Shown here: in pieces, positions 2,643-32,701 of the stretch
Numbering within the stretch: position 1 is the stretch's first letter
How the letters are laid out: the number at the start of each line of letters is the position of its first letter
Assembly (NCBI GenBank): GCA_007693535.1
Contig: REDK01000081.1
Location: forward strand, 1 to 38,664
Source: Chromatiaceae bacterium
GTDB taxonomy: Bacteria > Pseudomonadota > Gammaproteobacteria > Chromatiales > Chromatiaceae
Direction of reading: 5' to 3'
Length of the DNA stretch: 38,664 nucleotides
Notes under the pieces: generated by a model
Told to the model about the DNA's origin: nothing
What the model saw: only the letters and a program-made list of their open reading frames with translations
The model's database searches: none
Translations under genes and position numbers: made by a program

Positions 2643-2647
2643 AACCG

Positions 2648-2695
2648 GCCGATGGCGCAGGGCCATACACGGCCGATGGCGCAGGGCCATACACA
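2648..2695. repeat. Direct duplication of a 24-bp block
   Basis: Two exact adjacent copies of a 24-bp sequence beginning GGCCGATGGCGCAGG. They lie at the point where homology to the MNT protein ends, suggesting a scar of the rearrangement that truncated it. Confidence 0.9.
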
Positions 2696-2891
2696 GCCGC
2701 TTGGCCTCGCGCAGCCGGCTGCGCTGGGCGGACGTGGATTGCAATGGCCGGGTGGTTGGCAGCGAGAAATGGGAGCGAGCAGCGCCGGGTTTCAGCGAAG
2801 TAGCGGGCCAGCCCGGCGCCGATGAGATCGGGCAGGCGTGCGTCATGCGATGGTGGCGTCGGCGGGAATCTATCTAACTTGTTGTTTTTTT

Positions 2892-2967
<76 letters not shown>

Positions 2968-3167
2968 GGGGTGTCGCCGCGGGTGGAATGACCCGATTGC
3001 GGCTGGTGAGCCAGTGATCCGCAACCATCACCATGTCGCCCCAACGTTCGGCCTGTTGTGCCCAACCCCGAACGCCGCCGGCTGGCCATCGGCAGGATGC
3101 GGGCGCCTGCGGCAGGCCGGCCGCCCCGGGGCGGGCGCCCGATGCCCGAGGAGGCCGCCGGCCCGGC

Positions 3168-5015
<1,848 letters not shown>

Positions 5016-5486
5016 TCGGGTACCTGTTCGGCGAAATCTCGAGGTTCGGCGAAGTCGAGGTGGGGGTGGAACGCTTGGCTGATGACCGCGACGGGGCCGG
5101 ATCTCGTCACCGGGGCCTGCGCCGAGATGGACGGCCGGAAGGCACGCAGAGCGGCGGCCGGATCGCGCCCGGGGTGCGGGCGCTGATGCCGGTCGGCTCG
5201 CGCTGGGCCTCGACCTGGCCGAGCATCTGTGACGGACTGGCGCGGAAAGACCGGCGCGCAACGATCGTCGCGCAGAGACGGGCGCGGAAATACGGGCGCG
5301 GAAAACCTCCCAAAATAGCACAGCCTGGCACGTTGCTCTAGCCTCTAAGTCTAGCCGATCCCTGGCGCGATGGCGGCCGCCGGGCTGGCTTGATCCTGCA
5401 TCGAGCCGCGCCGGCAGCGGCTGCGGTCCGGAAGGCCGGGGCGAGCCCTCCGTTGCCGGGGCCGGGTCGGGCAAGGCCGACGCGGG
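5016..5486. other. dnaG-rpoD intergenic region
   Basis: 471 bases with no convincing gene. On the minus strand an AT-richer block around 5315-5345 (reading TGTGCTATTTT) is the best candidate for an rpoD promoter, but no full -35/-10 pair is convincing. TTCGGCGAAATCTCG and GGTTCGGCGAAGTCG form a near-direct repeat at about 5027-5060, just before the rpoD start. Confidence 0.4.
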
Positions 5487-7214
5487 TCAGTGGTCGGCGC
5501 GACGGCCGCGCCGCGCACGCAGCGCGGTGCGCTGTTCCGGCGTGAGATCCGCGAGCGAGCGAACCTCCCACAGGCGCGCCCGGCCGGCCCGCCCGGCCTG
5601 CTCGTTGAGGCGCTCGATGGCCCCTTGCACCTCCGCTGCTTTGCCCTCGTAGGTAAGGTCGATGGCCAGCAGTTCCGAGCGTTGCGCGATGATCGGCTCG
5701 TAGGGGCTGTCGCGCAGGCGTTCGCGCAGCATGCCGCCGGTCAGCCCCGGGGCGGCGTCGATCTGGGCCAGCAACTCTTGCAGCAGGTCGGCCCCGGGCT
5801 GGCGCAGGGCCGACCAATCGGTCGGCCGCACGGTCAGGGCCGCGGCCAGTCCTGGTTCGTCCAGTAACAGGGCGATGGCGCGGCGGGTCAGATCCATCTG
5901 CGGGGCCGGCACGCGGGCGGCGCGGCGCGGCGCGGCGCGGCCGCCTACCGGCGGCGGCAGGCCAACCAGCCGCGCCAGTTGTTGGGCCAGTAGGCCGCGG
6001 TAGGTCCCTGCCGGCACCCGCTCCAGCAGCGGGCGGGCGGCGGCGTCCAGGGCCGCGCGCCCCTCGGCGGTGGTCAGGTCCAGGCCGGTGCTCAGGTGCT
6101 CGAACAGAAAGGTCGAGAGTGGCGTCGCCCCAGTCAGGCGTTGCTCGAAGGCGACGCGCCCCTCCTTGCGCACCAGCGTATCCGGGTCTTCGCCCTCGGG
6201 CAGAAACAGGAAGCGCACCGGCTGCTGGCGGCCGACCTGGGGCAGGGCCGTGGTCAGTGCCTTCCAGGCCGCGGCGCGGCCGGCGCGGTCGCCATCGAAG
6301 CAGAACACCAGTTCGGGGGCACTGCGCAGCAGGCGGGTCAGTTGCTCCGGGGTGGTGGCGGTGCCCAGGGTGGCCACGGCGTAGGGGAGTTCGAACTGGG
6401 CCAGGGCAATCACGTCCAGGTAGCCCTCGACCACCAGCAGTCGGGGCGGTTGGCGGCTGGCCGCGCGCGCCTGATACAACCCGTAGAGTTCGCGCCCCTT
6501 GTGGAAGACCGCGGTTTCGGGGGAGTTCAAATACTTAGGCTCGCCCTGGTCGAGGATGCGCCCACCGAAGCCGAGCACGCGGCCGCGCCGGTCGTGGATC
6601 GGAAACATGATCCGGTCGCGAAAGCGGTCATAGCAACGGCCATCGTCGCGCTCGATGATGAGCCCGGCGGCGGCGAGCCGGGCGCGGCCGTCGCGGCCGG
6701 CGCCCAGCTGCGCCAGCAGCGCATCCCAGCCCGGCGGGGCAAAGCCGAGCCCGAAGCGGGCGGCGATGGTGCCGCTGAGGCCGCGCCCCTTGAGATAGTC
6801 GACGGCGCGCTGGGCCTGCGGATGGGTGCGCAACTGGCGCTGATAGAAGGCGGCGGCCTGCGCCAGGGTGTCATAGAGTGGACGCGGGTCCGGTCCTTCC
6901 CGGGGCGGCGCGTCGGCGTTGGGCAGGTCCATGCCAGCCTGGCGTGCCAACTCCGTCACTGCCTCGGGGAAGTCGAGGCGGTCGTACTGGATCAGGAAGT
7001 CGATGGCGTTGCCGTTCGCCCCGCAGCCGAAGCAGTGGTAGAACTGCTTGTCTGGGACGACGGTGAACGACGGGGTCTTCTCATTGTGAAACGGGCATAG
7101 CCCGAGATATTCCTTGCCAACGCGGCGCAAGGCGACGCGCGCGCCGATCAGCTCGACGAGGTCGACGCGGGCGAGCACGCGCTCCTTGAACTCGGGGGTG
7201 ATGCCGCGGGCCAT
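5487..7214 (-). CDS. dnaG: DNA primase
   Basis: A 575-residue replicative primase that makes RNA primers at the fork and works with DnaB helicase. The N-terminal CHC2 zinc-binding domain is complete: C40-PFH43 and C61-FGC64, with the EKTPSFTV motif between. The TOPRIM core shows LLVVEGYLDVIALAQ and CFDGDRAGRAAW. The C-terminal part is the helicase-interacting bundle, ending in LRARRGRRADH. The ATG at 7214 gives the normal MARGITPEF start. It lies 83 bases downstream of yqeY in the rpsU-yqeY-dnaG-rpoD group, the classical macromolecular synthesis cluster. Confidence 0.97.
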   Translation of the reverse strand: MARGITPEFKERVLARVDLVELIGARVALRRVGKEYLGLCPFHNEKTPSFTVVPDKQFYHCFGCGANGNAIDFLIQYDRLDFPEAVTELARQAGMDLPNADAPPREGPDPRPLYDTLAQAAAFYQRQLRTHPQAQRAVDYLKGRGLSGTIAARFGLGFAPPGWDALLAQLGAGRDGRARLAAAGLIIERDDGRCYDRFRDRIMFPIHDRRGRVLGFGGRILDQGEPKYLNSPETAVFHKGRELYGLYQARAASRQPPRLLVVEGYLDVIALAQFELPYAVATLGTATTPEQLTRLLRSAPELVFCFDGDRAGRAAAWKALTTALPQVGRQQPVRFLFLPEGEDPDTLVRKEGRVAFEQRLTGATPLSTFLFEHLSTGLDLTTAEGRAALDAAARPLLERVPAGTYRGLLAQQLARLVGLPPPVGGRAAPRRAARVPAPQMDLTRRAIALLLDEPGLAAALTVRPTDWSALRQPGADLLQELLAQIDAAPGLTGGMLRERLRDSPYEPIIAQRSELLAIDLTYEGKAAEVQGAIERLNEQAGRAGRARLWEVRSLADLTPEQRTALRARRGRRADH

Positions 7215-7297
7215 CTGCAACTCCGGCCGCTCGCGGGTGCGAACGCGACTGTCAGGCGGCGCTGGCGGGAGGCGCCGGGCCGGCCGCGGGAGGCCGT

Positions 7298-7741
7298 TCA
7301 GCCGGCCAGCCGCGCCTTCACCTGGGCGCTGACCGCGGCCATGTCGGCGCGGCCCTGCAGTTGCGGCTTCAGTTGTGCCATCACTTGACCCATGTCGCTC
7401 ATCGCGGTGGCCCCGGTGGCACCGATGGCGGCGTCGATCAGGCTGGTGATCTCCGCGGCGGTGAGTGCCGCCGGCAGATAGACCTGGCACACTTCGACCT
7501 CGAAGCGTTCCTGGGCCGCCAGATCCTCGCGGCCGGCGTTCTGGTATTGCTCGATGGAGTCGCGACGCTGCTTGAGCATCTTGTCGAGCACCGCCAGCAC
7601 CTGGGTGTCGTCCAGCTCGATGCGCTCGTCCACTTCGCGCTGCTTGATGGCGGCGTTGATCAGCCGGATCACGCCGAGCCGGGCCTTGTCGCCGGCCTTC
7701 ATGGCCGCCTTCATGTCCTCTTGCAGGCGTTGTTTGAGCAT
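7298..7741 (-). CDS. yqeY: GatB/YqeY domain protein
   Basis: A 147-residue single-domain YqeY protein, resembling the tail domain of the GatB subunit of Asp/Glu-tRNA amidotransferase. Typical blocks are MLKQRLQEDMKAAMKAGDKARLGVIR near the start, LKQRRDSIEQYQNAGREDLA in the middle and the C-terminal MGQVMAQLKPQLQGRADM. The ATG at 7741 is preceded by GAGG; the ORF continues five codons upstream without support. It sits between rpsU (82 bases upstream) and dnaG, its common place in gammaproteobacteria. The function is not established; tRNA binding is usually assumed from the GatB relationship. Confidence 0.93.
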   Translation of the reverse strand: MLKQRLQEDMKAAMKAGDKARLGVIRLINAAIKQREVDERIELDDTQVLAVLDKMLKQRRDSIEQYQNAGREDLAAQERFEVEVCQVYLPAALTAAEITSLIDAAIGATGATAMSDMGQVMAQLKPQLQGRADMAAVSAQVKARLAG

Positions 7742-10421: not shown

Positions 10422-11159
10422 CACGATGACTTCCTGCTCCCCTCGCTCTAAATCGACTCTGTGGAATCCCTTAGCGCTGCATGGGCAGCAGGCAGTGGCG
10501 GCTGCCCACCCCTGTTGGGATTGTGACTGATCGGTCGCGGGTGCCGCGGTCCGCGTTCGGCGCCGGCCGTGCGGCCCGCTCGAACGGTTTTGCATCGGCC
10601 GCGCTCGATGGCTTGGCGATGATCCACCCACCACCCCCAACGCCGCGTGATCTGGAGCAAGCGCGGCGCCACCCCCGCAGCGCAGGCCGACGCCGGATCA
10701 TAGCCGGTTGCTGTTGCAATTGCTTGCGATCGATTCGCAGTTCGGCGCGGCCGGCTCCGCCGACGAGCGATCGAGCCAGCGCGAGCCGTTCACCAACGAG
10801 GCCGACGCCGGCGCTGGTGCCCAGCACCTGCGGCAGGTCAGGCTGACGGCCGACTGGCACGGGCGCTTCGACCCAACTGCCTGGGCGGCGCTGCACCCCC
10901 TAAATCGGGTCGTCGTCAGGAAGCCCAGTGTTCAGCGGGCTTGGGCTGGTCCATGAGTCCTTGGCGTCGGCCGCGGGGGCCTTGGCCGGTTGCGGGAGGG
11001 CTGTGTGTCGTGCTAGGGACGCCTGCGATCGTCAAACCGCGTGCTACACTCATCGTCAACAGGAATGCTCGGTGACCTCGCGGTTGCGGGGTTTGGTTGT
11101 CCGACCCTGCGGGCCAAGCCATCTCTCAACAAGCCATCTCGTCAGACGAGGTTCCGTCG
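10422..11159. other. Long intergenic region before the SdrD B-like gene
   Basis: 738 bases between divergent genes with no ORF I can support. The open frames here are Arg/Pro/Ala-rich and unlike any family. The last 120 bases hold a possible -10 (TACACT at 11044-11049) that could serve the downstream gene, but no good -35 was found. Confidence 0.45.
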
Positions 11160-13721
11160 ATGCCAAAGCCCCCCCCCCATCGACAGTGGAAGGTCATTGC
11201 TGCGGCCCTGTGGCTGGTTTGCGTTGCCCTGCCCGCGCTCGGGCAGGAACCCGCGTGCCTCAGCACCGGCGGCTGTCTGGGCTTCCCGGATGCCGATGCC
11301 CAGAGCGGCAAATTCATCAACGTCACGCGCGGGCTATCCAGTCTTGGCGATGTCGGCACCGGGCAGCGGGTGTTCAACATCAGCCTGGAGATTCCGGCCG
11401 CGCGAGCCGACTTCGAGCTGGCGATCTTCGACGGTGAACTCGGTGGCCGCTGGGATCGGTGGACCGGCTCCAGTGCGAACCTGGACAACATCATTTTCAA
11501 GCTCTACCGCGACCCGCAGGGGGTGGGCACTACCGACCCGGGCGATCTCCTCTACGCCTGGCCGGCGGCCTCGATGCCGGACGATGCCTGGTGCACGCTC
11601 AACCCGGATTACCCGCTCGATCCCGTCAACAACCCCGTCTGTGTCAGCGGTTCCATCCCCCAGGACGCCGGCGCCTTCAACCTGGATCGTAACGCCCACA
11701 TTTACCACCTGGTGGCCGATTGGGCCACGACCAACCGCACCAACGAACAGAACAATTTCAAGGTCGTGGTCGAAGGCCAGCCCTTCCTACTGGCGGGCAG
11801 CACCATCGGCTTTCAAGGCTTCAAGTACCAGCATAGCAACGGGCTACAGCTCGGTGCCCCGACCGTCTACGACGGCCGGTTCGGCTTCAAGTTCTTCGTG
11901 CCGGACGGGACGAGCAGTCTCGTCTTCTATGACGGCGACGCCGACTTTGCCGACGACACCGACGATCTAAATTCGGACAATTGCACCCCCAACACCACCG
12001 GCTGCGGCTTCCCGCCATTTCAGACCTCGCCGGCGACGATCGCACAAGGCGCCAATCCCGGCGTCCCGCCGGATGATCTGACGAGTTCCGACCCGGCGTT
12101 CGACGCCCTGATCGCTGCGTTGATACGGGTGGAGCCATCGGTCTTCTACCGGATCCTGCCGCCGGCAGTCTCGGACTGGCCGGAGGGGCGGATCAATGAC
12201 GACGTCTCCGGCGACAAGGAATGGGAGTTCTACGGCCTCGGTGTGACCATCGCCGACTGCGTGGCGCCGGGTAATCCCGGCGTGCCCGGCTGTGACGATA
12301 CCGTGCCGTCCATCCCCGCCGGCCTCTACACCTGGCAGTTCGAGGGCGTGGATGGCTTCAACACGATCTATCTGCACACCGACTATGACGTGTTTCCGGA
12401 GCTGGCCTCGATCGGCGATACCGTCTGGTTCGACGCGAACCCGGACGGCTTCTGGGCCGACAACCCGTTCGTGATCCCGGTGGGCAATGAGCCCGGCATC
12501 CCGAACGTGCAGGTGAACCTGTATCGGGATGTGAACCGGAATGAGGCGCTGGACGCTGGCGACGACTTCGAAGGCTTCGCCTGCACCGATGCCGGCGGGC
12601 AGTACCTCTTTGCCGATCTGCCGTTGGACAAGTACATCGTGGAGATCGCCCAGCAGAACTTTGCCACTACCGGGTCCGCGTGCACGGGTGGCGGTCCCGG
12701 CGCCTTGGTCGGCCTGACACAGACCCTCGACCGCTCCACGGAGCCCGGCGATCATTTCAACCGCACCACCCCCTGGCCCGTCGATCTGCCGACCAACATC
12801 AACTATTCGCGGGCCGACTTTGGTTTTGTTGAATCGGAGCTGGCCTCGTTGGGTAATACGGTTTGGTACGATGCCAATCGCGACGGGTTCTGGGACGACA
12901 ACCCGTCGAGCCCTAGCCCTACGGGCGACGAGCCCGGTATCGCGGGCGTGCAGGTAAACCTGTACAGGGATGTGAACGGGGATCAGTTGCTGGACGACGA
13001 TGACGAGTTCGTGGGCTTGTTGTGCACCGACGGCAACGGCCAATATCTCTTCACCGATCTGCCGCTCGGCGACTACCTCGTGCAGATTGCGCCGGGGAAT
13101 TTCGACGCGACCGCTGGTTCCCAGTGCACCGCAGGCGGTCCTGGAGTGCTGGTCGGCCTCACGCAGACGGTGGATCGCTCCTCGGAGCCTGAGGACCATT
13201 ACAACCGCATGACCCCCTGGCCGGTCGACTTGTCAACCAGCAGCGACTATATCCTGGCCGACTTCGGTTACGTCGAGGCGGACGGCGGCGGCCAAGGTTG
13301 TACCCCTGGCTACTGGAGGCAGCCGCACCATTTCGGTTCATGGGTCAATTACCAGCCCAGCGATCTGTTTGCGAGCGTCTTTGATGATGCCTTCCCGGGC
13401 AGGACCCTCCTAGACGTGGTCAGGCAAGGAGGCGGCGGCCTGAACGCCCTTGGACGCCACACCGTCGCCGCACTGCTGAACGCCGCTAGTCCGGGCGTGA
13501 GCTACGACCTCTCGGTGGAAGCCGTGATCGCGTTGTTCAATCAGACCTATCCAGGTTCCCGCCAGGAGTATGAGGCACTGAAGGATCTGTTCGAGGGCTT
13601 CAACGAGCAAGGGTGCCCGTTAGGGAGGAGCGGAAACGGGGACAATGGCTCCGGACGCCCGGGCAACCCCCCCGGGAACCAGGGCAATCGCCCCGGGAAC
13701 CCGGGCAATGGCCGTCGTTGA
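11160..13721 (+). CDS. Secreted SdrD B-like repeat protein with CTPGYW-type C-terminal region
   Basis: An 853-residue exported protein. A signal peptide follows the basic PPPHRQWK start (VIAAALWLVCVALPALGQ), with cleavage likely after GQ. The first 400 residues form a large beta-rich domain of unknown type. Two SdrD B/Cna B-like repeats begin near residues 414 and 559, each with ASxGxTVWxDAN, PGIxxVQVNLYRDVN, GQYLFxDLPL and PWPVDL blocks. From about residue 713 comes a GCTPGYWRQPHHFGSW domain, seen in many secreted proteins of environmental bacteria. The tail is a Gly/Asn/Pro/Arg-rich stretch. No LPXTG or PEP-CTERM anchor is visible. ATG at 11160 is chosen because the signal peptide starts there. 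It lies 212 bases upstream of the RiPP genes; any link is unproven. Confidence 0.85.
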   Translation: MPKPPPHRQWKVIAAALWLVCVALPALGQEPACLSTGGCLGFPDADAQSGKFINVTRGLSSLGDVGTGQRVFNISLEIPAARADFELAIFDGELGGRWDRWTGSSANLDNIIFKLYRDPQGVGTTDPGDLLYAWPAASMPDDAWCTLNPDYPLDPVNNPVCVSGSIPQDAGAFNLDRNAHIYHLVADWATTNRTNEQNNFKVVVEGQPFLLAGSTIGFQGFKYQHSNGLQLGAPTVYDGRFGFKFFVPDGTSSLVFYDGDADFADDTDDLNSDNCTPNTTGCGFPPFQTSPATIAQGANPGVPPDDLTSSDPAFDALIAALIRVEPSVFYRILPPAVSDWPEGRINDDVSGDKEWEFYGLGVTIADCVAPGNPGVPGCDDTVPSIPAGLYTWQFEGVDGFNTIYLHTDYDVFPELASIGDTVWFDANPDGFWADNPFVIPVGNEPGIPNVQVNLYRDVNRNEALDAGDDFEGFACTDAGGQYLFADLPLDKYIVEIAQQNFATTGSACTGGGPGALVGLTQTLDRSTEPGDHFNRTTPWPVDLPTNINYSRADFGFVESELASLGNTVWYDANRDGFWDDNPSSPSPTGDEPGIAGVQVNLYRDVNGDQLLDDDDEFVGLLCTDGNGQYLFTDLPLGDYLVQIAPGNFDATAGSQCTAGGPGVLVGLTQTVDRSSEPEDHYNRMTPWPVDLSTSSDYILADFGYVEADGGGQGCTPGYWRQPHHFGSWVNYQPSDLFASVFDDAFPGRTLLDVVRQGGGGLNALGRHTVAALLNAASPGVSYDLSVEAVIALFNQTYPGSRQEYEALKDLFEGFNEQGCPLGRSGNGDNGSGRPGNPPGNQGNRPGNPGNGRR

Positions 13722-13933: not shown

Positions 13934-15865
13934 ATGGCCAGTATCGCGGGTGTCTATCAAGTCGACGGCGCGCCGGTCGCTCGCGGCGTGCTACAACGAT
14001 TGGCAGGAGCCATCGCGTATCGGGCAGCCGATGGCGTCGATGTCTGGCAGCAGGGATCGGTGGGACTCGTCCACGGCCACTTCTGGACCACGCTGGAGGA
14101 GGTCGGTGAGCGGCAGCCGATCTCGGCTGCCGACGGTCGGTTCTGGGTCACCGCCGACGCCCGTATCGATAATCGCGACGAGCTGATGGATGGGCTGCGC
14201 GGCGGCGGCGATCTGACTCAGAAAACCCCGACTGACGCCGAGCTGATCCTGGCGGCCTATGCCCGCTGGGGCGAGGGCTGTGCCGAACGGCTGGTCGGCG
14301 ACTTCGCGTTCGCACTCTGGGATGCGGCAGCGCGGAGGTTATTCCTGGCGCGGGACCTGATCGGTATCCGCCAGCTCTACTATGTGCAGGTCGACGGCGC
14401 CTTCTACTTCGCGACCACCGTTGGCGCGCTGCTGGCGGTGCTCCCGAGTACGCCAGCGCTGAACCGGCCGCTGATCGACGCCTATCTGCGCGGCAACTGG
14501 TCGCTGTGGGTCTGTCAGACGGTCTATCAGGGGATCTTGCGCCTGCCGCCCGCGCATGCGCTGAGCGTTGTGCCGGAGCGCAGCGCAACCCCGCGCCTGT
14601 TCTATGTGCTGGGGTCACAGCCGCCGCCGGCCTATGGGTCCGACGAGGCGTGGTTCGCGGCCTTTCGCGACGTCCTGAACACGGCCATCCGCGCCCGGCT
14701 GCGGAGTCGCGAGCCGGTCGGGCTGCTGCTCGGCGGTCTGGACTCGTCCGCGATCGCCTGCGCGGCGCATGAGCTGGTGCGCGCAGAGCCGGGTCTTCCG
14801 GCCGTTCGGCTCTATACCTCGGTCTATCGTGACCTGCCCAGTGCCGACGACTCCCCCTACAGCGCCGCGGTCGCCGAGCGCTGTCCGGCCTTCACCTATA
14901 CGCGAATCGAGAGCGACGACTGTTGGGCCTTTCGTGAGTACAGCGAGCGACAACTGGCCTGCGACGAGCCGGTGATCTCCCCGCTGCGCTGCCTGAATCT
15001 CCACCAGTTCCGCACCATTGCCGCGGACGGCGCCCGCGTTGCGCTGCACGGCGACGGTGGGGACGGGATCCTTGGCCGGTTTCTCTACCACGATCCGGTC
15101 GCGATCAGGGGGCTGCCCTGGCGCGAGTGGTTTGGCCAGCGACGCCAGCTGTGGGCCCACGGGCGCTTCGGCTTGGTCGGGCTGTTGCTGCGGGCCTATC
15201 TCGCGCCCGCGGTCCCGGCGCCCGTGTGGCACTTCAAACGCAGCCTGCTCCAGCGGGTGGGGCGCTGGGAACCGGCCTGGCTGGCGGATCTCGGCTATGG
15301 CCCCTATCGAGTGACCTGTCGGTTGGATCGCCGCTTCCACGATCCCCGCGGCCTGCCGCCAGCTGCTGCCGTCATCCATCGGCAATTGCGGCATCCTTAC
15401 GACATTGCCCGGCAGAGCGATCACGACTTCGTCGCCGGGCTTGCTGGTCTGGAGCTGCGCGCCCCTTTGTTCGATCGGCGATTGCTGGAGTTCATGCTCG
15501 GCAACCTGCCGCCGCATCTGCGGACGTGGCGCGGCGCCGATCGGGTGATGGCACGCGAGGGTCTGCGTGCTATTCTTCCCGAGACCGTTCGTCAACGGTT
15601 CAGCAAGGCCACGGGAGAGGGGCTCGTGCAGCGTGGACTCAGGCACCGGGAGCGGGCGTTGATCGAGAGGCTGCTCGCGGGCTCAAGCGCGCAGCGCCTC
15701 GGTGTCTTCGATGCAGCGGCGCTGCGCGCGGCCGTCGTGGACTATTGGCAAGAACGTACGAATAACGCCGCGCAGGTCTCCAAAGCCCTGCACCTTGAGG
15801 CCTGGCTGCGGATGCAATGGACGCCGCACCCTAGCGCAGGCGCTGATCCAACCCTAACTCCTTGA
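13934..15865 (+). CDS. Asparagine-synthetase-like protein, probable lasso-type macrolactam cyclase
   Basis: A 643-residue AsnB homologue. The class II glutaminase-like domain starts MASIAGVYQVDG, so the catalytic Cys that should follow the initiator Met is Ala: the glutaminase half is probably inactive, as in lasso cyclases. The synthetase domain has the ATP pyrophosphatase loop at about 266-271, but reads LGGLDS instead of SGGLDS. Further blocks are RDLIGIRQLYY, DDSPYSAAVAERC, LHGDGGDGILGR and a C-terminal helical region. In lasso biosynthesis such a protein adenylates an Asp/Glu side chain and closes the ring with the N-terminal amine. The precursor follows 13 bases downstream, which supports this role. 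ATG 13934 is preferred over GTG 13931; GAAGG lies upstream. Confidence 0.85.
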   Translation: MASIAGVYQVDGAPVARGVLQRLAGAIAYRAADGVDVWQQGSVGLVHGHFWTTLEEVGERQPISAADGRFWVTADARIDNRDELMDGLRGGGDLTQKTPTDAELILAAYARWGEGCAERLVGDFAFALWDAAARRLFLARDLIGIRQLYYVQVDGAFYFATTVGALLAVLPSTPALNRPLIDAYLRGNWSLWVCQTVYQGILRLPPAHALSVVPERSATPRLFYVLGSQPPPAYGSDEAWFAAFRDVLNTAIRARLRSREPVGLLLGGLDSSAIACAAHELVRAEPGLPAVRLYTSVYRDLPSADDSPYSAAVAERCPAFTYTRIESDDCWAFREYSERQLACDEPVISPLRCLNLHQFRTIAADGARVALHGDGGDGILGRFLYHDPVAIRGLPWREWFGQRRQLWAHGRFGLVGLLLRAYLAPAVPAPVWHFKRSLLQRVGRWEPAWLADLGYGPYRVTCRLDRRFHDPRGLPPAAAVIHRQLRHPYDIARQSDHDFVAGLAGLELRAPLFDRRLLEFMLGNLPPHLRTWRGADRVMAREGLRAILPETVRQRFSKATGEGLVQRGLRHRERALIERLLAGSSAQRLGVFDAAALRAAVVDYWQERTNNAAQVSKALHLEAWLRMQWTPHPSAGADPTLTP

Positions 15866-15878
15866 ACGGAGGTTGACG

Positions 15879-16043
15879 ATGACCAAGCAAGTCGAGCAGC
15901 AGACCGACCAAACGAGCGCCGCTGCGGTCCCCGTGAAGCGCCCTTATGAGCCACCCCTCGTCAAGCCCTACGGACCGCTTGCAGATCTGACGCAAGCGGG
16001 GCTCACGGGTACTCCTGATACCCTAGGCTCGCAACAGACCTAA
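15879..16043 (+). CDS. Probable lasso-type RiPP precursor peptide
   Basis: A 54-residue peptide with a perfect GGAGG six bases before its ATG. The leader carries RPYEPPLVKPYGPLADLT, matching the lasso leader pattern YxxPxLxxxGxxxxLT read by RRE (PqqD-like) domains. Thr38 at the usual -2 position predicts a core starting at Ala40: AGLTGTPDTLGSQQT. Asp47 is then core position 8, giving an eight-residue ring and a seven-residue tail ending in Thr. The start resembles the AG...TPD core of paeninodin, a lasso peptide made with an HprK-like kinase. A Gly41 start with a seven-residue ring is possible but breaks the Thr -2 rule. It lies between the cyclase and PRTase-RRE genes with 12-13 base gaps, so the three probably form one operon. 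Confidence 0.8.
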   Translation: MTKQVEQQTDQTSAAAVPVKRPYEPPLVKPYGPLADLTQAGLTGTPDTLGSQQT

Positions 16044-16055
16044 CAGCCATTCGGG

Positions 16056-16973
16056 GTGCTTGTCGGGCTGCCGGCAGCGATTCCGACCCGTTCGCTCAGC
16101 TACGAACAGGCCGAGGCGGCGGCCGGTGCGCTGGCTGCGCGGCTGATCGCCTCGGTCGGAGAGGCGTTCCTTGGCCGCTGCGGCTTCGTCGCCATTCCAC
16201 GGGGCGGGCTCTTCGTGCTGGGCATGCTCTCGTATCTGCTGAATCTGGAGCGGGCGAACCTTTGGCCCCTGCCGGCCGACCGCCCGGTGGTCGTCGTCGA
16301 CGATGGCAGTTACTCGGGGTCACGCCTCGCGTGGATGCTGGGGCAGCTCGGCCAGCCCGAGGTCATCTTCGCCCACCTGTACTCCCACCCCGACCTGCGG
16401 GCCGCCGTGCTGCAGGCCGAGCCACGTGTGATCGCCTGTGTCGCCGCCCACGATCTGCGCGACCACGCGCGCGAGACCTTGCCCGACGAGCAGGCCTACC
16501 GGGAGTGGCAGCAGCGCGGCCGGGAACGTTTCGGCGACAAGCGCTACTGGATTGGCCGGCCGGATCTGGTGATCTTTCCCTGGACCGAGCCGGATCGGCC
16601 GGTCTGGAACCCGGGTACCGGGCGGCTGGAGGAGCATTGGCGGCTCGCTCCGCCCGATCGGTGCCTAGGGAATTGGGCGCGGCTGGGGATGCTGCCGCGC
16701 GGCGATGTCCGACGCACATTACGCAGCCCGGATCAGGTCGCCTTCAACCTGCAGGACGACGAGGTGCTGCTGTGTGATCTGCGCAGCGAGGAGGTGATCG
16801 GTCTGCAGGGCACTGCGGCCGAGATGTGGCGGGCACTAGCCGCCTACGGCGATCCCGAGGCGGCGCTGGGCCACCTGCAGACCTGCTTCGAGGTCGACGA
16901 GGCCAGGCTGCGCCGCGACCTGGCGCACTTCATTGCGGACCTGCTGAGCCGCAGGCTCTTGGAGCGGGTCTAG
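16056..16973 (+). CDS. Phosphoribosyltransferase-fold protein fused to PqqD/RRE domain
   Basis: A 305-residue two-domain protein. Residues about 1-185 read as a type I phosphoribosyltransferase: GFVAIPRGGL (46-52) is the first loop and VVVVDDGSYSGSR (78-90) the PRPP loop with two Asp. An unusual RYWIGRPDLVIFPWTEPDRPVWN block follows (164-184). Residues about 222-305 form a PqqD-like RiPP recognition element (VAFNLQDDEVLLCDLRSEE, then GTAAEMWRAL and two helices). The start is GTG at 16056, 12 bases after the precursor stop; the ribosome site is weak, suggesting translational coupling. In lasso clusters an RRE (B1) delivers the leader; here it is fused to a domain that might bind PRPP or a nucleotide. 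I do not recognise this fusion from characterised lasso systems. Confidence 0.8.
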   Translation: MLVGLPAAIPTRSLSYEQAEAAAGALAARLIASVGEAFLGRCGFVAIPRGGLFVLGMLSYLLNLERANLWPLPADRPVVVVDDGSYSGSRLAWMLGQLGQPEVIFAHLYSHPDLRAAVLQAEPRVIACVAAHDLRDHARETLPDEQAYREWQQRGRERFGDKRYWIGRPDLVIFPWTEPDRPVWNPGTGRLEEHWRLAPPDRCLGNWARLGMLPRGDVRRTLRSPDQVAFNLQDDEVLLCDLRSEEVIGLQGTAAEMWRALAAYGDPEAALGHLQTCFEVDEARLRRDLAHFIADLLSRRLLERV

Positions 16974-17113
16974 CGGGCGACTCCTCACTGCCCCGTTCTG
17001 CCAGTGGATTCACTGTTCTTGCCAGCAGTGGCAGCACCTCGCACTGGGTCGTTCGATCTTGAAGTCTGTGGCGTCGGCGCGGACGTCCGAGCGGTCAGCG
17101 CAGACGCTGCGTC

Positions 17114-17671
17114 TCACTCGCCAAGCATGTAGGCCAAGTCCAGCTCGCTGTCATCGAATGGGGGGATGTGCGCGCGTCGGCCTTCGTTGGCGGCCAAACT
17201 GAAGGTCATCGCCACGCGGTAGTGGTCGCCGTCCAGTTGATGCACGATCAGGGTGCGGTCCTCGGGCCAGATGAGCCAGTAATAAGGGACCCGATGACGC
17301 TGTAGCAGCAGGAACCGCGTCAACGTGTCCTTGCGCTCATGGCCGGGGGAGACGATCTCGCACACCCAGTCGGGCGTCAGCTCGACGACGCCGCGAGGGC
17401 GCGCCGGCATGCGGTCCTTGCGCCAGCCGGCCAAGTCGTGGCTCGGGCACTGATAGCGCTCATAGGCGACGCCCACCTCGGTGATGATCCACCAGCCACC
17501 AGGGCCGGCCCGACGCGGCAGCTCGCCAAGCTCGGTCGCCGTCGCCACCTGCGCCATGCCGTGGTCCGCCCTCGCCATCGGTCGGCGCACGAGCTCGCCG
17601 TCGATCAGCTCGACGCGCTCCTCCGGACTCTCGCGGAGATCATCGATGGTCTTCCGCTTATGGGCTTCCAT
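17114..17671 (-). CDS. Uma2-family putative restriction endonuclease-like protein
   Basis: A 185-residue Uma2 (DUF820) protein with a PD-(D/E)XK fold. Visible blocks are ERVELIDGELVRRPMARADHG near the start, TPDWVCEIVSPGHERKDTLTRF (the D...E.xS nuclease-like strand) and VPYYWLIWPEDRTLIVHQLDG. The ATG at 17671 gives the normal MEAHKRKTIDDL beginning; the much longer open frame upstream is shadow sequence containing the GGGGCC repeat. It lies on the opposite strand between the RRE-fusion and the kinase and splits the RiPP genes. Uma2 genes are often present in dozens of copies in such genomes, so it is probably an unrelated insertion. Function unknown. Confidence 0.88.
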   Translation of the reverse strand: MEAHKRKTIDDLRESPEERVELIDGELVRRPMARADHGMAQVATATELGELPRRAGPGGWWIITEVGVAYERYQCPSHDLAGWRKDRMPARPRGVVELTPDWVCEIVSPGHERKDTLTRFLLLQRHRVPYYWLIWPEDRTLIVHQLDGDHYRVAMTFSLAANEGRRAHIPPFDDSELDLAYMLGE

Positions 17672-17875
17672 CGGCGCTGGTGATTCCTCCGAATGGGGTC
17701 GGCGGGATGATCGTCCGGTCTTGCAAGCAATCACCCAGTCCCCGGGCCGCCTGATCGGTGCCCTGGCAACCTTTCGGGCCTTCGGTATGATGCATCGATC
17801 TCTGCAGCATGTCAGCCGCCGCTGGGCGACAGGCGGTGCGCGCAAGGCAGGTGCGTGACAACAACATGACGTGAC

Positions 17876-17905
17876 GGGGCCGGGGCCGGGGCCGGGGCCG
17901 GGGCC
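17876..17905. repeat. Five tandem GGGGCC hexanucleotides
   Basis: (GGGGCC)5 lies 68 bases upstream of the kinase ATG, with the G-rich strand as the sense strand. It can form a G-quadruplex in DNA or in the 5' leader of the mRNA. A GTG at 17871 would translate it as a GP-repeat N-terminus, which I reject as the protein start. Confidence 0.95.
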
Positions 17906-17972
17906 GCAGGGCCGCAATCGGACTGGTTCGAGTCGACCTGAACGCTGCGAACAACGAACGCTGCAAATAACA

Positions 17973-19013
17973 ATGGTGGGTGTCGGATTGCAAGACCTGA
18001 CCCGGGCAGGCGCGCACGGCTGGCCGCGGTATCGGCTGTTCGGGCTGACGCTGGCGAGCAACTTTGCCTTCCAGACGCACTTGCCGACGGTCACGGATGC
18101 CCCGGACCTGGGCTTCGTCTGTACGGCCGATGCCCCCGCGGGGCTGGACCTGGCGCAGCCCAGCCCCGACTATTGCAGCCCGTACCGCGATCAGCATGGT
18201 GAGCCGGCGCTTAGCATCTATCGGTTGCCGGGGCGGGACCTGCTGCGCTTTGCGGATGCGGTGGATTTCCATCTCTACCCGGACTTCATCCATTGCCACG
18301 TGCGCGATCCGGAGACGGCCTTTTGGGTCGAGATCCGGCTCTTGGGCGTGGTCTTGTCCTTTTGGATGGAGCGCCAGCAGATCCCGATGCTGCACTGCGC
18401 GGCGACCGTCGTCGACGGTCTGGCCGCCGGATTTCTCGCCAGCAATCAGGGCGGCAAGAGTTCGTTGGCGGCGGCCTTGATGCAGGCGGGCTATCCCCTG
18501 TTGACCGATGACATCTTGCCGATCGAGACCGCCGGGCAGCGGTTCGTCGGCCGCCCCGGCTATCCGAGTACCAGGTTCTGGCCGGCGGCCGCCGAGCATT
18601 TTCTCGGGCGCTCGGCGGATCTGCCGCAGGTCCATCCGGACCTGAGTAAACGGCGCGTCTCGGTGGTGGGTGACGGGCTGGGCGGGTTCTGGGACCGCCC
18701 GGCACCGATTGGTTGCCTCTATCTGCCGGAGCGCTACGACCGGGACGCCGAGGACGCGCCGGTGGAGATCACGCCGTTCGCGCCCGCCGCCGCCCTGATG
18801 GAGCTGCTGCGCCATTCGTTCATCGTCCGGCCGGTGCAGGCGCTGGGCTGGCAGCCGCGGCGTTTGGCCTTGCTGTCGCGGCTGGTGCAACAGGTGCCGC
18901 TGCGGCGGCTGCGCTATCCGAGCGGTTTCGAGCATCTGCCACGGGTGCGCGCGGCGGTGCTGGCCGATCGCGGCCACTGGGCTGGTGGCCCGGGCCAGTT
19001 AGGGGCCAGTTAG
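17973..19013 (+). CDS. HPr kinase-related protein (HprK-related kinase A type)
   Basis: A 346-residue protein with an HprK-like C-terminal core: MLHCAATVVDGLAAGFLASNQGGKSSLAAALMQ holds the P-loop (about 157-165), and GYPLLTDDILPIE matches the HprK DD motif (179-180). The first glycine of the P-loop is Ala. The N-terminal 125 residues are not the HprK regulatory domain. Proteins of this class occur with PqqD and nucleotidyltransferase genes; in paeninodin-like lasso clusters they phosphorylate the C-terminal residue of the precursor. A precursor ending in Thr fits, though the characterised examples use Ser. ATG 17973 is chosen because the upstream frame is repeat sequence; no strong ribosome site is visible. 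The stop codon lies inside an 11-bp repeat. Confidence 0.85.
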   Translation: MVGVGLQDLTRAGAHGWPRYRLFGLTLASNFAFQTHLPTVTDAPDLGFVCTADAPAGLDLAQPSPDYCSPYRDQHGEPALSIYRLPGRDLLRFADAVDFHLYPDFIHCHVRDPETAFWVEIRLLGVVLSFWMERQQIPMLHCAATVVDGLAAGFLASNQGGKSSLAAALMQAGYPLLTDDILPIETAGQRFVGRPGYPSTRFWPAAAEHFLGRSADLPQVHPDLSKRRVSVVGDGLGGFWDRPAPIGCLYLPERYDRDAEDAPVEITPFAPAAALMELLRHSFIVRPVQALGWQPRRLALLSRLVQQVPLRRLRYPSGFEHLPRVRAAVLADRGHWAGGPGQLGAS

Positions 19014-19024
19014 GGGCCAGTTAA
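18990..19024. repeat. 11-bp tandem repeat overlapping kinase stop codon
   Basis: Three copies of GGGCCAGTTAG (the last ending TTAA) cover the 3' end of the kinase. The kinase stop is the TAG of the second copy. A change in copy number could alter the C-terminus. Confidence 0.85.
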
Positions 19025-19058
19025 GGACCATTTTGCGCGTCAGTTCTGGGCCGTCGTC

Positions 19059-20531
19059 GTGTCGCTTACTGAGTTGAGATGCCGCAGGGCGATGCTGGCG
19101 CGTCTCGTCGCGGTCGGCATGCTGGTGGCCGCGCTCGCGAACGGCGCCGGCTTCTTTCTGAAGCGCATCGGCGTGCTCGAGCACGCCGCCTATGCGGCCT
19201 ACCTTGCCGACTACTGCGATCCGGACCGCACCGCGCGGTGGCTTGGTAACCGCTGCAGCCATTGGCGTCCTGCGCCGGAAGCGGCCGGCGGCTACGCGAT
19301 GTACGAGCGTAGCCACCTCTACGCCACGCCGGGCGCCGAGCTGCTGCTGAAGCTGGCGAAGGATCTGTTCCTGGCGCTGTTCACCATCGGATCGCTAAGC
19401 CTGATCCTGCTTGGTCGCCAGGGCACTGCAGGTTCCGCGGTCGGCGACTGGTTCGACGGACGCGGTCTACACGGCGGCCTGGCGATCCCCTGGCCGGCCG
19501 TGCCGCTGCTGGCGAGCGTCGCCGTCGGACTGGCGATGGCCTGGGCACGGTTCGGGCCGGACTTGGCGGCGGCCGGGCTGCGGTCGTTCTGGTTCCTGGC
19601 GGTTGCCCTAGTCGGCGGTTGGCTGGTGTCGCGTGCGTCCATGAGCCGCCTTGCCGATGCGGTGGGGCTGCTGTTGCTGTTGCAGGTGCCGATTCTGGCG
19701 CTCGAGACCTGGTCTGGGTTGCCGTTGGACAAGGGCTATGCGGTGACCGCGCACTGGAATCTACCCAGTCGTATGTCCGGCAGCTTCATCATGCCCAATA
19801 GCCTGGGGCTGGCGGCGGCGCTCGCATTGGCCTTCTACTGGGCCTACTCGGCGCAACGGCGCTGGTGGTGGCCGTTGGTCGCGGTCGTGGTCGTGCTGCT
19901 GCTGCTGAGCCGGTCGGCCGGCGGGTTCGCGGTCCTGGGGGTCTCGCTGGCGTCGATCACCGTGCTCAAGGCCGATCGCGCGCGGCGTGCGCGGCTGCTG
20001 CTGTTCTCGGTCGCGGTTGCGTTGCTGCTCGTCTGGGCACTGCCGCACATGCTGATGCGCGGCAGTCTCGTCGAATCGGCGTTCGGCCGGCTGGATAAGC
20101 TGGGGTGGCTGCTGACGCAGACGGATGCGTGGCAGCAGTGGCTCGGGCAGGGGCTTGGGGTGGGCACCAACAGTTGGCTCAATCTGCTGACGGCGCGCGT
20201 GCAGGCGGATCCGACGCTGGCAGCCGGTGCGGCGCCGCCGGCGGCGGTGGCGTTGGCGGCAGACTCCACCGTGACCATGCTGTTCGCGCAGATCGGGTGG
20301 CTGGGTGTGGCTGGCTTTTACGGGCTCATGGGCTGGTGGCTTTGGGTCGACCGGACCGGTCGGGTCTTTGCTCTCAGCCTGTTGCTCGGCAGTCTGGTCA
20401 TCAATCTGACCGAGCTGTTCCCCGTCAACTTCCTGCTCGGGCTGGGGTTGAGCCGCGCGCTGTGCCGCACCGGCTGGCGACCTTTTCAACCCGGCGGTTT
20501 GCGCAGGCCTTCGGCGATGCGGCGCACATAG
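19059..20531 (+). CDS. O-antigen ligase/polymerase-like membrane protein
   Basis: A 490-residue polytopic inner-membrane protein with ten or more hydrophobic segments and a large loop before the last ones, the layout of the Wzy/WaaL/O-antigen ligase superfamily. An early periplasmic loop has several cysteines (DYCDPDRTARWLGNRCSHW). The GSFIMPNSLGLAAALALAF block and the loop with GLGVGTNSW are typical of this group. Such proteins polymerise or transfer lipid-linked oligosaccharide. The GTG at 19059 is 45 bases after the kinase stop. The 3' end overlaps the convergent nucleotidyltransferase gene by 46 bases. It could belong to the polysaccharide locus or to the RiPP genes; polysaccharide is more likely. 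Confidence 0.75.
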   Translation: MSLTELRCRRAMLARLVAVGMLVAALANGAGFFLKRIGVLEHAAYAAYLADYCDPDRTARWLGNRCSHWRPAPEAAGGYAMYERSHLYATPGAELLLKLAKDLFLALFTIGSLSLILLGRQGTAGSAVGDWFDGRGLHGGLAIPWPAVPLLASVAVGLAMAWARFGPDLAAAGLRSFWFLAVALVGGWLVSRASMSRLADAVGLLLLLQVPILALETWSGLPLDKGYAVTAHWNLPSRMSGSFIMPNSLGLAAALALAFYWAYSAQRRWWWPLVAVVVVLLLLSRSAGGFAVLGVSLASITVLKADRARRARLLLFSVAVALLLVWALPHMLMRGSLVESAFGRLDKLGWLLTQTDAWQQWLGQGLGVGTNSWLNLLTARVQADPTLAAGAAPPAAVALAADSTVTMLFAQIGWLGVAGFYGLMGWWLWVDRTGRVFALSLLLGSLVINLTELFPVNFLLGLGLSRALCRTGWRPFQPGGLRRPSAMRRT

Positions 20532-21670
20532 AGCAACGGCAGTTGCCAACGGCGCTGGGTGTCGTACTTGGCCAGGATGTACGCGGGGGGCGGAAACAGA
20601 TAGCTAGCGATCAACCCCAGGCGCCGCGCCCAGCTGCGCGTGGCGCGCAGGGTGGCGAGCAGCCGCTGCAGCTCGTTGCCCTGGAGTGCCTCCAGCGGGA
20701 TGGCGCGGTGCGCGGTTCGGGTCAGCGCCGCCATGACAGGGCCTGGAAAGTTGGTGCCGAGGGCCTGTCGGGTCAGCGTGAAGCTGTCGAGGCAGATGCG
20801 TTGCAGGCGCTTGGCGCTGGCCAGCCGGGTGAAGCATTCCCAGTCGGTGGTGGTCATTGCCTGCGCGAGGAGATGGATGTCGTAGAGCCAGATGAGTCGG
20901 TCACCGGCGTATCGGTCCTCGCCCTCGCCGGCTGGCTCGTAGGCATGGTGGGCGCGATGGGCGCAGGCCAGCAGCAGCGCATCGGCGAAGCCCAGGGCAC
21001 GGACCGCCGGCCCGAGGGCGGGTACCGGGACGGCCCGCTGCGCCAGCTCCGTCTGCGTCCAGGCCAGCGCGAACAGCTCGGTGTTGCTGATGCGCCAGTG
21101 CAGGTCGATGGTGTGCCTGATGTCGTAGCCGTCGCGCTGGTGGTATTCGATTTGGTGGTTGAAGTGAGCCAGTGCGTCAAGGCGCTGGGCGCTGCGGTAG
21201 CCGCGCGCCTCGAGCAGGCGGGCGGTCGGCGCGGCCTGATCCCGCCGGACCAGCAGGTCAGTATCTTGGCGGGTACGCAGGGCCGGGGCGGGGTAAAGGC
21301 TGTGCGCTAGGGCCGCCCCCTTCATCACCAGAGGCGTGATGCCGGCGGCGGTCAGGGTGGCGAGGGTGGCGACTAGCTCGCGCGTGCGCAGCAGATCCCG
21401 CGTGGTCGCCGTCTGCGCCTGTTGCTCGAGCGCCCGGCGCAGCGCCTCGGGCCAGGTCTGCCAGGACGCGGTTGGCTTGAGTCGAGCGTAGAGCAGCAGG
21501 GTAACGCCGTGGTGTGCTGCCGCGGCCAGCAGGTCGCGTGCCGTCGGCCCGGGCCCGCGGGGCTGATCGGCGGGGGCGTCATCGCCTGGCCAGTCGATGC
21601 CACCGGAGCGCAAGACGGCACGGACGAGCTGCTCTGCTGCATGGGCCGATGCTGTCGCGATGTCGTTCAT
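20486..21670 (-). CDS. Nucleotidyltransferase family protein (NTP_transf_5)
   Basis: A 394-residue protein. The family core is LVMKGAALAHSLYP then LRTRQDTDLLVRRDQ, the G-S-like strand and D-x-D metal site of polymerase-beta-fold nucleotidyltransferases. RHTIDLHWRISN supplies the third acidic strand. The C-terminal part is helical, with an ALLLACAHRAHH motif. Such genes recur with HprK-like kinases in lasso clusters; in pseudomycoidin the homologue adds hexose units to the phosphorylated peptide. Here it is on the minus strand, convergent with the membrane protein and divergent from the stand-alone PqqD gene (91 bases). The likely role is decorating the phosphate placed by the kinase, by analogy only. 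Confidence 0.85.
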   Translation of the reverse strand: MNDIATASAHAAEQLVRAVLRSGGIDWPGDDAPADQPRGPGPTARDLLAAAAHHGVTLLLYARLKPTASWQTWPEALRRALEQQAQTATTRDLLRTRELVATLATLTAAGITPLVMKGAALAHSLYPAPALRTRQDTDLLVRRDQAAPTARLLEARGYRSAQRLDALAHFNHQIEYHQRDGYDIRHTIDLHWRISNTELFALAWTQTELAQRAVPVPALGPAVRALGFADALLLACAHRAHHAYEPAGEGEDRYAGDRLIWLYDIHLLAQAMTTTDWECFTRLASAKRLQRICLDSFTLTRQALGTNFPGPVMAALTRTAHRAIPLEALQGNELQRLLATLRATRSWARRLGLIASYLFPPPAYILAKYDTQRRWQLPLLYVRRIAEGLRKPPG

Positions 21671-21761
21671 GCTGGGGTATGCTGCGGGGGCCCCGCGGGG
21701 AAAGCCGGTGGAGAGCCGGCTGCAACCCGTTAGAAATCTGCAGACTGGAAGATGGTTGTCA

Positions 21762-22043
21762 ATGGCGAGTGCACTCGATCAGGTGGTGAGCATCCCCGAC
21801 GTGGTCCTCTTCCAGGAGGTTGCCGGTCAGGCCGTGTTGCTGAATCTGCAGACTGAGCGGTATTTTGGCCTCAACGAGGTCGCGACCCGAGCCTTGCAGT
21901 TGCTGCAGCAGGATGGGCATCTGGCGGCAGCGTTCGAGACCCTGGCCCGGGAGTACGATGTCGCGCCGGAGCGCCTGATGCAAGATCTTCTGACATTGGT
22001 TCGCGACCTGGAGGCGGCCGGGCTGGTCGTGAGCGAACGCTGA
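21762..22043 (+). CDS. PqqD-family RiPP recognition protein
   Basis: A 93-residue stand-alone PqqD-like protein: VVSIPDVVLFQEVAGQAVLLNLQTERYFGLNEVATRALQLL gives the three-stranded sheet and first helix, and a C-terminal helical pair (LMQDLLTLVRDLEAAGLV) completes the winged-helix fold. Such domains bind leader peptides and present them to modifying enzymes. NCBI models name a close class 'HPr-rel-A system PqqD family peptide chaperone', which fits the HprK-like kinase nearby. It is the second RRE in the region beside the PRTase fusion, so one may serve the cyclase step and the other the kinase or transferase step. The gene is divergent from the nucleotidyltransferase. Confidence 0.88.
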   Translation: MASALDQVVSIPDVVLFQEVAGQAVLLNLQTERYFGLNEVATRALQLLQQDGHLAAAFETLAREYDVAPERLMQDLLTLVRDLEAAGLVVSER

Positions 22044-31524: not shown

Positions 31525-31660
31525 TTGACCGATTTGACCGACGAGGCCCACTTCCGCATCCTGGGCCTCCTCGCCGAGCGCCCCGACGCCAGCCAGCGCC
31601 AGCTTGCCGAATACGACGCCCTAGAGCGGGAAATCGCCCAACTGCGGGCCGAGGTCCATG
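31525..31660 (+). pseudogene. Internally deleted EPS-type MarR regulator remnant
   Basis: The frame from a TTG at 31525 reads LTDEAHFRILGLLAERPDASQRQLAEYDALEREIAQLRAEV when its two halves are joined. The first half matches the N-terminal helix and start of the winged helix of MarR-type EPS-associated regulators; AEYDALEREIAQLRAEV matches their C-terminal helix. The DNA-recognition helix and wing are missing, apparently by an in-frame deletion. It is just downstream of the ops site. Assignment is from recalled family pattern, so moderate. Confidence 0.5.
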
Positions 31661-31767
31661 CGAACGCCGCCGCGCCCGAGCACTGGAGCCCCGGCGGACC
31701 CGCAGTTTCACCCACGTACCGAACGCCATGGCAGCTCCCATCCCGCGCGCTCAGGCGCTGCACCAAG

Positions 31768-31875
31768 CCCGCGGCTGCGCCACGGACTCCAAGCACCGGC
31801 GGCCCCTGGAGTCCGGAGCTTCAGCTCCGTGCGTCTGCGCCCGGCCGCGCATCACGCCCGCGGCAACGCCACCGC
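31768..31875. repeat. REP-like two-hairpin repeat, copy 2
   Basis: CCACGGACTCCAAGCACCGG leads into a second half with TGGAGTCCGGAGCTTCAG and CTCCGTGCGTC. CGGACTCCA pairs with TGGAGTCCG, and CGGAGC-TTCA-GCTCCG forms a second hairpin. It is inserted between the MarR remnant and exporter remnant. Confidence 0.87.
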
Positions 31876-31884
31876 TGCTGCGGT

Positions 31885-31912
31885 GCGCCCGCTGCGCGCG
31901 CGCAGCGGGCGC
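31885..31912. repeat. 28-bp perfect palindrome
   Basis: GCGCCCGCTGCGC, two bases, then its exact inverse GCGCAGCGGGCGC. It abuts REP copy 2 and has the GCTGCGCGCGC core of the GTGCGC repeat family. Confidence 0.9.
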
Positions 31913-31914
31913 GA

Positions 31915-32520
31915 CTTCGCCAACGTCCTCACCGCCACCTCCAATACTTTCGCCGGCAACGCCGGCATCTTCGACAAGGTCTACTTCCCGCGCCTGGCAG
32001 TGCCCATCGCTGACCGCATCTCCAAGCTCATCGCCTTCGCCATCCAACTCGTCTTCTTCCTCGCCTTCATCGCCCTCGCCTTCATCGCCTGGTTTGCCTG
32101 GCGTGGCACCGCGCTCAACCCCATCGCCGCCATCGTCATCCACATCGAGCACCTCAGCACGTACGACTGCCGCGGCCTGAGCGGCGGCGGCACCCTGCGC
32201 GAAGACCTCAACCGCTGGTGGGCGAAGGCGCGCCGCCGGCCCGACCCCCTGCTCAAGATCGGCGAGACCGACCACGGCAACCGCCAGGGCGGTCAGATTT
32301 GGGCGCGGCGCGACAGCAAACTGGAGGTCAGAGAGGGCGATGCCCATCTTGGAGTCTGGGGCCTCATCGGCCGCAACGGCGCCGGCAAGCGCACCCTACT
32401 CAAAGTCCTCTCGCGCATCACCGCGCCCACTGAGGGCCGCATTCGGATCAAGGGCCGCGTCGGCGGGCTGCTCGAGGTCGGCGCCGCCCTCCACTCAAAG
32501 CCGCCGGCTCGGAGGTCGTT
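31915..32520 (+). pseudogene. Fused remnants of polysaccharide ABC exporter (permease tail + ATPase start)
   Basis: One open frame joins two gene pieces. The first (about 31915-32125, NTFAGNAGIFDKVYFPRLAVP and two hydrophobic segments) matches ABC-2 permeases of the Wzm/TagG/KpsM type. The second (about 32126-32520) matches the N-terminal half of the Wzt ATPase: VREGD, then GLIGRNGAGKRTLLKVLSRI and GGLLEVGA. The Walker A motif has GKR instead of GKS. Permease start and ATPase C-terminal half (signature and Walker B) are missing. The frame runs on into unrelated sequence. This was an O-antigen/capsule exporter pair and is no longer functional. Confidence 0.75.
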
Positions 32521-32701
32521 CTGTCACGACGTAACCTGGGCCATGCAGCTTCACAGCCCGCGCGGATCGGCCGTTAGCAACGTTCGTGTTCAAGCGGGGT
32601 TCAACCCTGCCGATGAACGACTCAGCGACTCTGAATGATGGATCAACTGGCGCATCCTCCGCCAGCCACGAGCTGCGAGGCCGGTCGGCACCAAGAGCGA
32701 T

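Follow-up and report, generated by a model that had tools for sequence, protein, structure and literature searches.

The locus examined here, from a Chromatiaceae bacterium, raises the question of what a phosphoribosyltransferase (PRTase) domain fused to a leader-binding RRE domain is doing in a lasso-type RiPP gene cluster. We analysed the whole stretch of 38,664 nucleotides (hereafter, the window), in which an initial annotation had seen a single lasso-type pathway that includes a kinase and a nucleotidyltransferase. The main novelty is the PRTase-RRE fusion, which recurs in the lasso gene sets of other bacteria. It was present as the initial annotation had listed it, yet this most distinctive part of the cluster had been assigned no role. 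We consider the chances about even that the fusion is a leader-guided tailoring enzyme that uses PRPP, in a subfamily of phosphorylated lasso-type RiPPs marked by the fusion, although the chemistry itself is still conjectural.

Every gene that had been listed was found where it had been placed (Table 1). The cluster occupies 13.9-22.0 kb and runs from the AsnB-like cyclase through the precursor, PRTase-RRE fusion, Uma2 gene, HprK-like kinase, membrane protein, and NTP_transf_5 gene to the stand-alone PqqD/RRE, with all of its pathway ORFs open and a Wza/Wzc polysaccharide locus downstream. Two genes had been said to interrupt the pathway. One is indeed a Uma2 gene, but the other, described as polymerase-like, encodes a membrane protein without a Pfam family. 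The Uma2 gene is probably an insertion rather than a pathway member, since the fusion and kinase genes adjoin in most relatives. Perfect short tandem repeats flank the kinase gene (17875-17906, 6 bases; 18992-19023, 11 bases), and a 12-base repeat in 15.5 perfect copies lies at the window's edge (1-186). Just upstream of the cluster, positions 11097-13721 encode an 874-aa protein with SdrD B-like domains, possibly a surface protein. An ORF at 31658-32638 contains only a short ABC ATPase piece (PF00005 positions 13-47) and is possibly a degraded polysaccharide exporter.

Table 1. Features of the candidate lasso-type cluster, with their positions in the window and the evidence for each.
Feature	Position	Strand	Evidence
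AsnB-like lasso macrolactam cyclase	13934..15865	+	PF00733 145.4 bits; NF033535 353.6 bits (cut-off 525)
GGAGG, likely ribosome-binding site of precursor	15868..15872	+	Direct reading of sequence
54-aa precursor ORF	15879..16043	+	Leader-model score, profile search, leader/core alignments
Precursor leader, 39 aa, ending LTQ	15879-15995	+	Predicted cleavage point, set by Thr at -2
Precursor core AGLTGTPDTLGSQQT	15996-16040	+	Predicted boundary, set by Thr at -2
PRTase-RRE fusion; RRE about 16725-16964	16056..16973	+	PqqD 41.9 bits (cut-off 23.4); Pribosyltran 17.8 bits, N-terminal (cut-off 26.3)
Uma2 gene, probable insertion outside pathway	17114..17671	-	PF05685 74.3 bits
HprK-like kinase	17973..19013	+	Weak family matches, catalytic residues kept, kinase tree
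Polytopic membrane protein, without Pfam family	19059..20531	+	No Pfam match
NTP_transf_5 nucleotidyltransferase	20486..21670	-	PF14907 163.7 bits (cut-off 31.2)
Stand-alone RRE (B1-like PqqD)	21762..22043	+	PF05402 55.2 bits; lasso PqqD model NF033530 51.5 (cut-off 70)

When the whole window fusion was used as the query, no other fusion was found among 54 relatives, where G021 was matched by the RRE only, or in 368 class genomes, a pattern search of genome contigs, or plasmids. By contrast, the PRTase part alone matched a protein of Litchfieldella qijiaojingensis (G829, Halomonadaceae) at 42% identity (E 1.2e-36). Used as a query in turn, the G829 protein found no fusion in plasmids. A second match to the PRTase part, in G807 (E 3e-4), was dropped because its neighbourhood had no matches to the other query proteins. 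With a two-row profile, 15 of the 250 Halomonadaceae genomes searched proved to carry the fusion, and we therefore rejected the possibility that it exists only in the window. In one of these, G906 (L064, 9365-10575), the PRTase and RRE halves are two ORFs with a 4-base overlap, which could be a natural split or a frame break. Among 194 genomes of the family to which the window belongs, six gave a match, namely the window's genome and five others that matched by the RRE only (profile positions 307-408). A wider class sample, with few candidates scored per genome, gave one match in 340 genomes, again the window's own. This patchy spread suggests transfer.

To describe the surrounding gene set, we examined stretches of up to 20 kb that surround the fusion in the 15 genomes and the B2 gene in nine. 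The cyclase and precursor lie beside the fusion in all 15, and the kinase lies within the fusion cassette in 14 and ~23 kb away in G895. Counting the fusion and B2 stretches together, NTP_transf_5, an ABC exporter, and B1 were present in every genome. B2 (PF13471) was likewise above cut-off in 15/15, located 1.2-33 kb from the fusion in 14 genomes and on another contig in G1083; this model recovered several B2 genes that tblastn had missed. Because the examined stretches of 8 of the 15 genomes contained a second cyclase, two cyclases may share a single B1/B2 set. The claim of a single lasso-type pathway that includes a kinase and a nucleotidyltransferase was thus borne out, as the genes recur together in 15 other genomes, each with a leader-motif precursor beside the fusion and cyclase and the same leader/core layout. 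Because this gene set recurs in distant bacteria, it may point to a previously undescribed type of peptide decoration.

The 54-residue precursor had been proposed to carry a YxxPxLxxxGxxxxLT leader. Both the ORF and the layout of the motif held up, but the leader reads Y23..P26.V28...G32....L37-T38, with YxxPxV instead of YxxPxL. The published leader consensus, [Y/W]xxPx[L/V/I/A/F/Y], covers this variant (PMC13381572). With the curated leader model NF033521, the ORF scored 16.4 bits (E 0.0067), below the cut-off of 19. We also ran a profile trained on 14 precursors, taken from 13 genomes and excluding the window, on the 468 window ORFs of at least 25 aa. The 54-residue ORF was the sole significant match (E 4e-7, with the next ORF at 0.2). 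This score partly reflects the leader motif, because the training precursors were chosen by the same motif beside the fusion, and core similarity (QxGLT) also contributes. Still, the ORF is conserved beside cyclase and RRE homologues and does not score as random sequence.

Across the 16 precursors from the window and the 15 other genomes, Thr at -2 and Gly2 of the core were invariant, and position 4 always carried a hydroxyl (Thr in 11, Ser in 5). The core would allow the predicted Ala1-Asp8 ring, but among the 15 other cores the ring acid is at position 9 only in 14 and at both 8 and 9 in one (L051), leaving the window as the only core with the acid at 8 alone. For controls, we hand-picked 15 other lasso precursors, leaving out that of G404 (L020), whose boundary was unclear. 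Thr/Ser4 occurred in only one control core (L059b), itself a second precursor of the same type, although this contrast overstates independence because the sequences share ancestry. Second precursors within the fusion cassettes of L057, L059, and L064, which were among the controls, carry Leu, Asp, and Ile instead of a hydroxyl at position 4, which is therefore not a universal target. A GS in the tail was rejected as a signature since it was present not only in 16/16 cores but also in 9/15 controls. The window core has this GS internally and ends in Thr, not Ser. Its predicted [M+H]+ is 1446.707 when linear and 1428.697 as a lasso, 1508.663 with phosphate, and 1640.705 with phosphoribosyl. In G847 (L052), positions 931-2790 contain a row of four ORFs, upstream of B1/B2, that look like precursors and are related to one another in leader and core.

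Within the window fusion, the PqqD match passed its cut-off and the Pribosyltran match did not, and the Pfam family PRTase-CE also fell below cut-off on the G829 protein (24.0 bits vs 27). AlphaFold2, run on an alignment of 15 rows (the window and 14 relatives, with G906 left out), gave a predicted structure with pLDDT 79.3 and pTM 0.59. In Foldseek searches, the C-terminal part of this structure matched leader-bound TbiB1, a lasso RRE (E 1.2e-6), while PRTases were matched by the N-terminal part, including 4trb (E 3.8e-5, TM by target 0.40) and XGPRT 4jls (E 1.8e-3, 0.62). The fold match to PRTases was partial, and the ppGpp-bound PRTase-fold protein 5vog and the regulator PyrR were also among the matches. 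Checking the cluster against lasso and RRE models gave a mixed outcome, with PqqD above cut-off and the fused RRE resembling TbiB1, but NF033521 sub-threshold and PF13471 absent from the window.

In all 15 rows of the fusion alignment, IPRGG, DD, and G-x-R were invariant, and the Ser preceding that Gly was replaced by Thr in one row. The RGG and DD loops also lined up with the sequence of E. coli XGPRT in a comparison that was not significant (probability 1.9%). From these motifs and the modelled structure, the N-terminal domain is predicted to have a type I PRTase fold with PRPP (DD...SG) and RGG loops. The fusion resembles type I PRTases (XGPRT, HGXPRT, APRT) and PRTase-CE in its fold matches and its RGG and DD loops, but it differs from type I enzymes in its attached RRE. 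The general base of purine PRTases, an Asp within DDxxD(T/S)G, is absent from the fusion, which has Tyr86 at this position in the window and, among the 14 relatives, Leu in all but one, where it is Ile, making a purine acceptor unlikely. Of the 410 positions in the family profile, only those from 94 onwards are matched by the window fusion, with ~90 N-terminal residues missing.

In the pathway that we propose, the fused RRE and the stand-alone B1 would hold the YxxPxV...LT leader, and the HprK-like kinase would phosphorylate a hydroxyl of the core. Brought to the precursor by its RRE, the PRTase domain would use PRPP to place a ribose-phosphate-type group there, most plausibly on the ring hydroxyl at position 4. 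By analogy with pseudomycoidin, the phosphate may then be decorated by NTP_transf_5. A B2 encoded elsewhere in the genome, on contig C27, would cut off the leader after Gln39, and the cyclase would link Ala1 to Asp8. In favour of this pathway are the recurrence of the fusion with the gene set, the clade shared by the window and linked kinases, the conserved Gly2 and position-4 hydroxyl of the cores, the fold matches and invariant loops of the fusion, and the placing of a methyltransferase with a weak PqqD match after the precursor in the C27 cluster. The changed cyclase loop, the lack of a B2 in the window and of a clear exporter orthologue in the genome, the replaced general-base Asp, the partial PRTase fold match, and the second precursors without a position-4 hydroxyl weigh against it. 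A narrower version of this proposal, in which the fusion is a peptide phosphoribosyltransferase that moves ribose-5-phosphate from PRPP onto the ring Thr/Ser (or its phosphate) of the lasso precursor and so founds a phosphoribosylated lasso class, is tentative and somewhat doubtful.

The main rival to transfer by the PRTase domain is that this domain acts as a sensor or scaffold, binding PRPP or a related phosphate and gating maturation through the RRE while transferring nothing, in an otherwise ordinary phosphorylated lasso pathway. Replacement of the usual catalytic Asp by Tyr, Leu, or Ile would be in keeping with such a role, as would the structural likeness to 5vog and PyrR. However, the invariance of the IPRGG and DD loops and the position of the fusion beside the precursor in 15/15 relatives, as for a tailoring gene, point towards an enzyme, even though both are compatible with a sensor. 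We regard a purely sensory role as rather unlikely.

Whether the window copy of the pathway works is a separate matter. As had been noted, its AsnB-like protein has no N-terminal Cys (it starts MASI, with no Cys2). The best NCBIfam match of this protein was the lasso cyclase model NF033535, at a score below cut-off. In the cyclase tree, it grouped with L017 and the 15 fusion-linked cyclases (95/96), a placement that carries a long-branch warning; the short L017 contig had no fusion on it. HprK-like family scores of the kinase were weak (Hpr_kinase_C 12.8 bits, cut-off 33.3; TIGR04352 23.6, cut-off 200), and its H, GKS, and DD residues were invariant in a seven-row alignment. The window kinase, on a long branch, and the 15 linked kinases grouped in a single clade (100/98) that excluded the host's C27 kinase.

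Even in a genuine family, the window copy may be impaired or inactive because it has no B2 beside it and because its cyclase loop reads LLGGLDSS, with Leu in place of a Ser that is kept in 30 of 31 aligned cyclases (25 SGG, 5 SSG). These two features could be part of a broader decay, in which the window copy of a genuine pathway type has also lost its exporter, for which the host genome had no clear orthologue (best 33%), had its fusion shortened, as the truncated profile match would indicate, and had Uma2 inserted between fusion and kinase. Yet every pathway ORF in the window is open, the precursor retains its leader and core pattern, and pathway parts are scattered in relatives too. On balance, we consider decay unlikely.

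The tailoring pathway that we favour can be set beside known systems, as described in the accessible parts of the cited reports. The Bsf lasso cluster of Bradymonas sediminis resembles the window family in having A, B1, B2, C, and D genes together with a kinase and a nucleotidyltransferase, and its kinase modifies ring residue Ser3, aided by B1 (PMC10368454). By contrast, it has Ile and not Thr at -2, and the accessible text describes no PRTase-RRE (PMC10368454). Pseudomycoidin and paeninodin share an HprK-like kinase with the window, and the pseudomycoidin NTP transferase adds hexose to the phosphate, but the residue phosphorylated in both is a C-terminal Ser, whereas the window has a C-terminal Thr plus the PRTase-RRE (PMC8498205). 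Tailoring of the paeninodin/pseudomycoidin type, as previously suggested, thus agrees with the kinase and NTP_transf_5 but not with the C-terminal Thr and leader Tyr, which contrast with Ser and Trp (PMC8498205, PMC13381572). The LPP clusters of Bacillota also share the polysaccharide locus, RRE, HprK, NTP transferase, and YxxP leader, but have an SpI-like peptidase (PMC13381572). A linear LPP-like phosphopeptide with no closed lasso would fit the changed cyclase loop and the presence of two RREs together with a kinase and an NTP transferase at a polysaccharide locus, but it is improbable given that cyclase and B2 are kept in 15/15 relatives, that Thr at -2 and a ring acid at 8 or 9 occur in 16/16 precursors, and that LPP clusters are described in the accessible text as having no cyclase of their own (PMC13381572), whereas the window has one (13934-15865).

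Neither the fusion nor a phosphoribosyl lasso modification was found among the titles listed in searches of the lasso/RiPP literature, which covered few subscription papers, and two reviews did not contain "ribosyl." In PMC11705953, phosphoribosyltransferase names a marker gene. If the fusion does transfer a PRPP-derived group, this would be a peptide modification absent from the lasso literature searched, made by a tailoring enzyme that brings its own leader-binding domain.

The initial annotation had missed that its cluster contains no B2 peptidase. The only PF13471 match in the host genome (E <= 0.001) lies in a second lasso cluster on contig C27 (L007, G000; 1825-7410), which carries B1, B2, cyclase, precursor, a PRMT-like methyltransferase, and a kinase. 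Over 76 aa, the B1 proteins of the window and of C27 share 54% identity. We rejected this likeness as specific because the G021 B1 is equally close (48% over 89 aa, with a score as high), so the window B1 is only of the host-family type. Identity to the B1 proteins of the 15 fusion-linked genomes was 20-34%. We infer that the window B1 could work with the C27 B2 in trans, and citrulassin provides a precedent for a remotely encoded lasso tailoring enzyme (PMC9266682). For genome mining, the lesson is that lasso pathway parts can be scattered over up to 33 kb, with one B2 possibly serving two cyclases. In the C27 cluster, the methyltransferase occupies the place of the fusion, after the precursor. 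Its C-terminal part matches PqqD weakly (15.7 bits, cut-off 23.4), so it is possibly another tailoring enzyme fused to an RRE.
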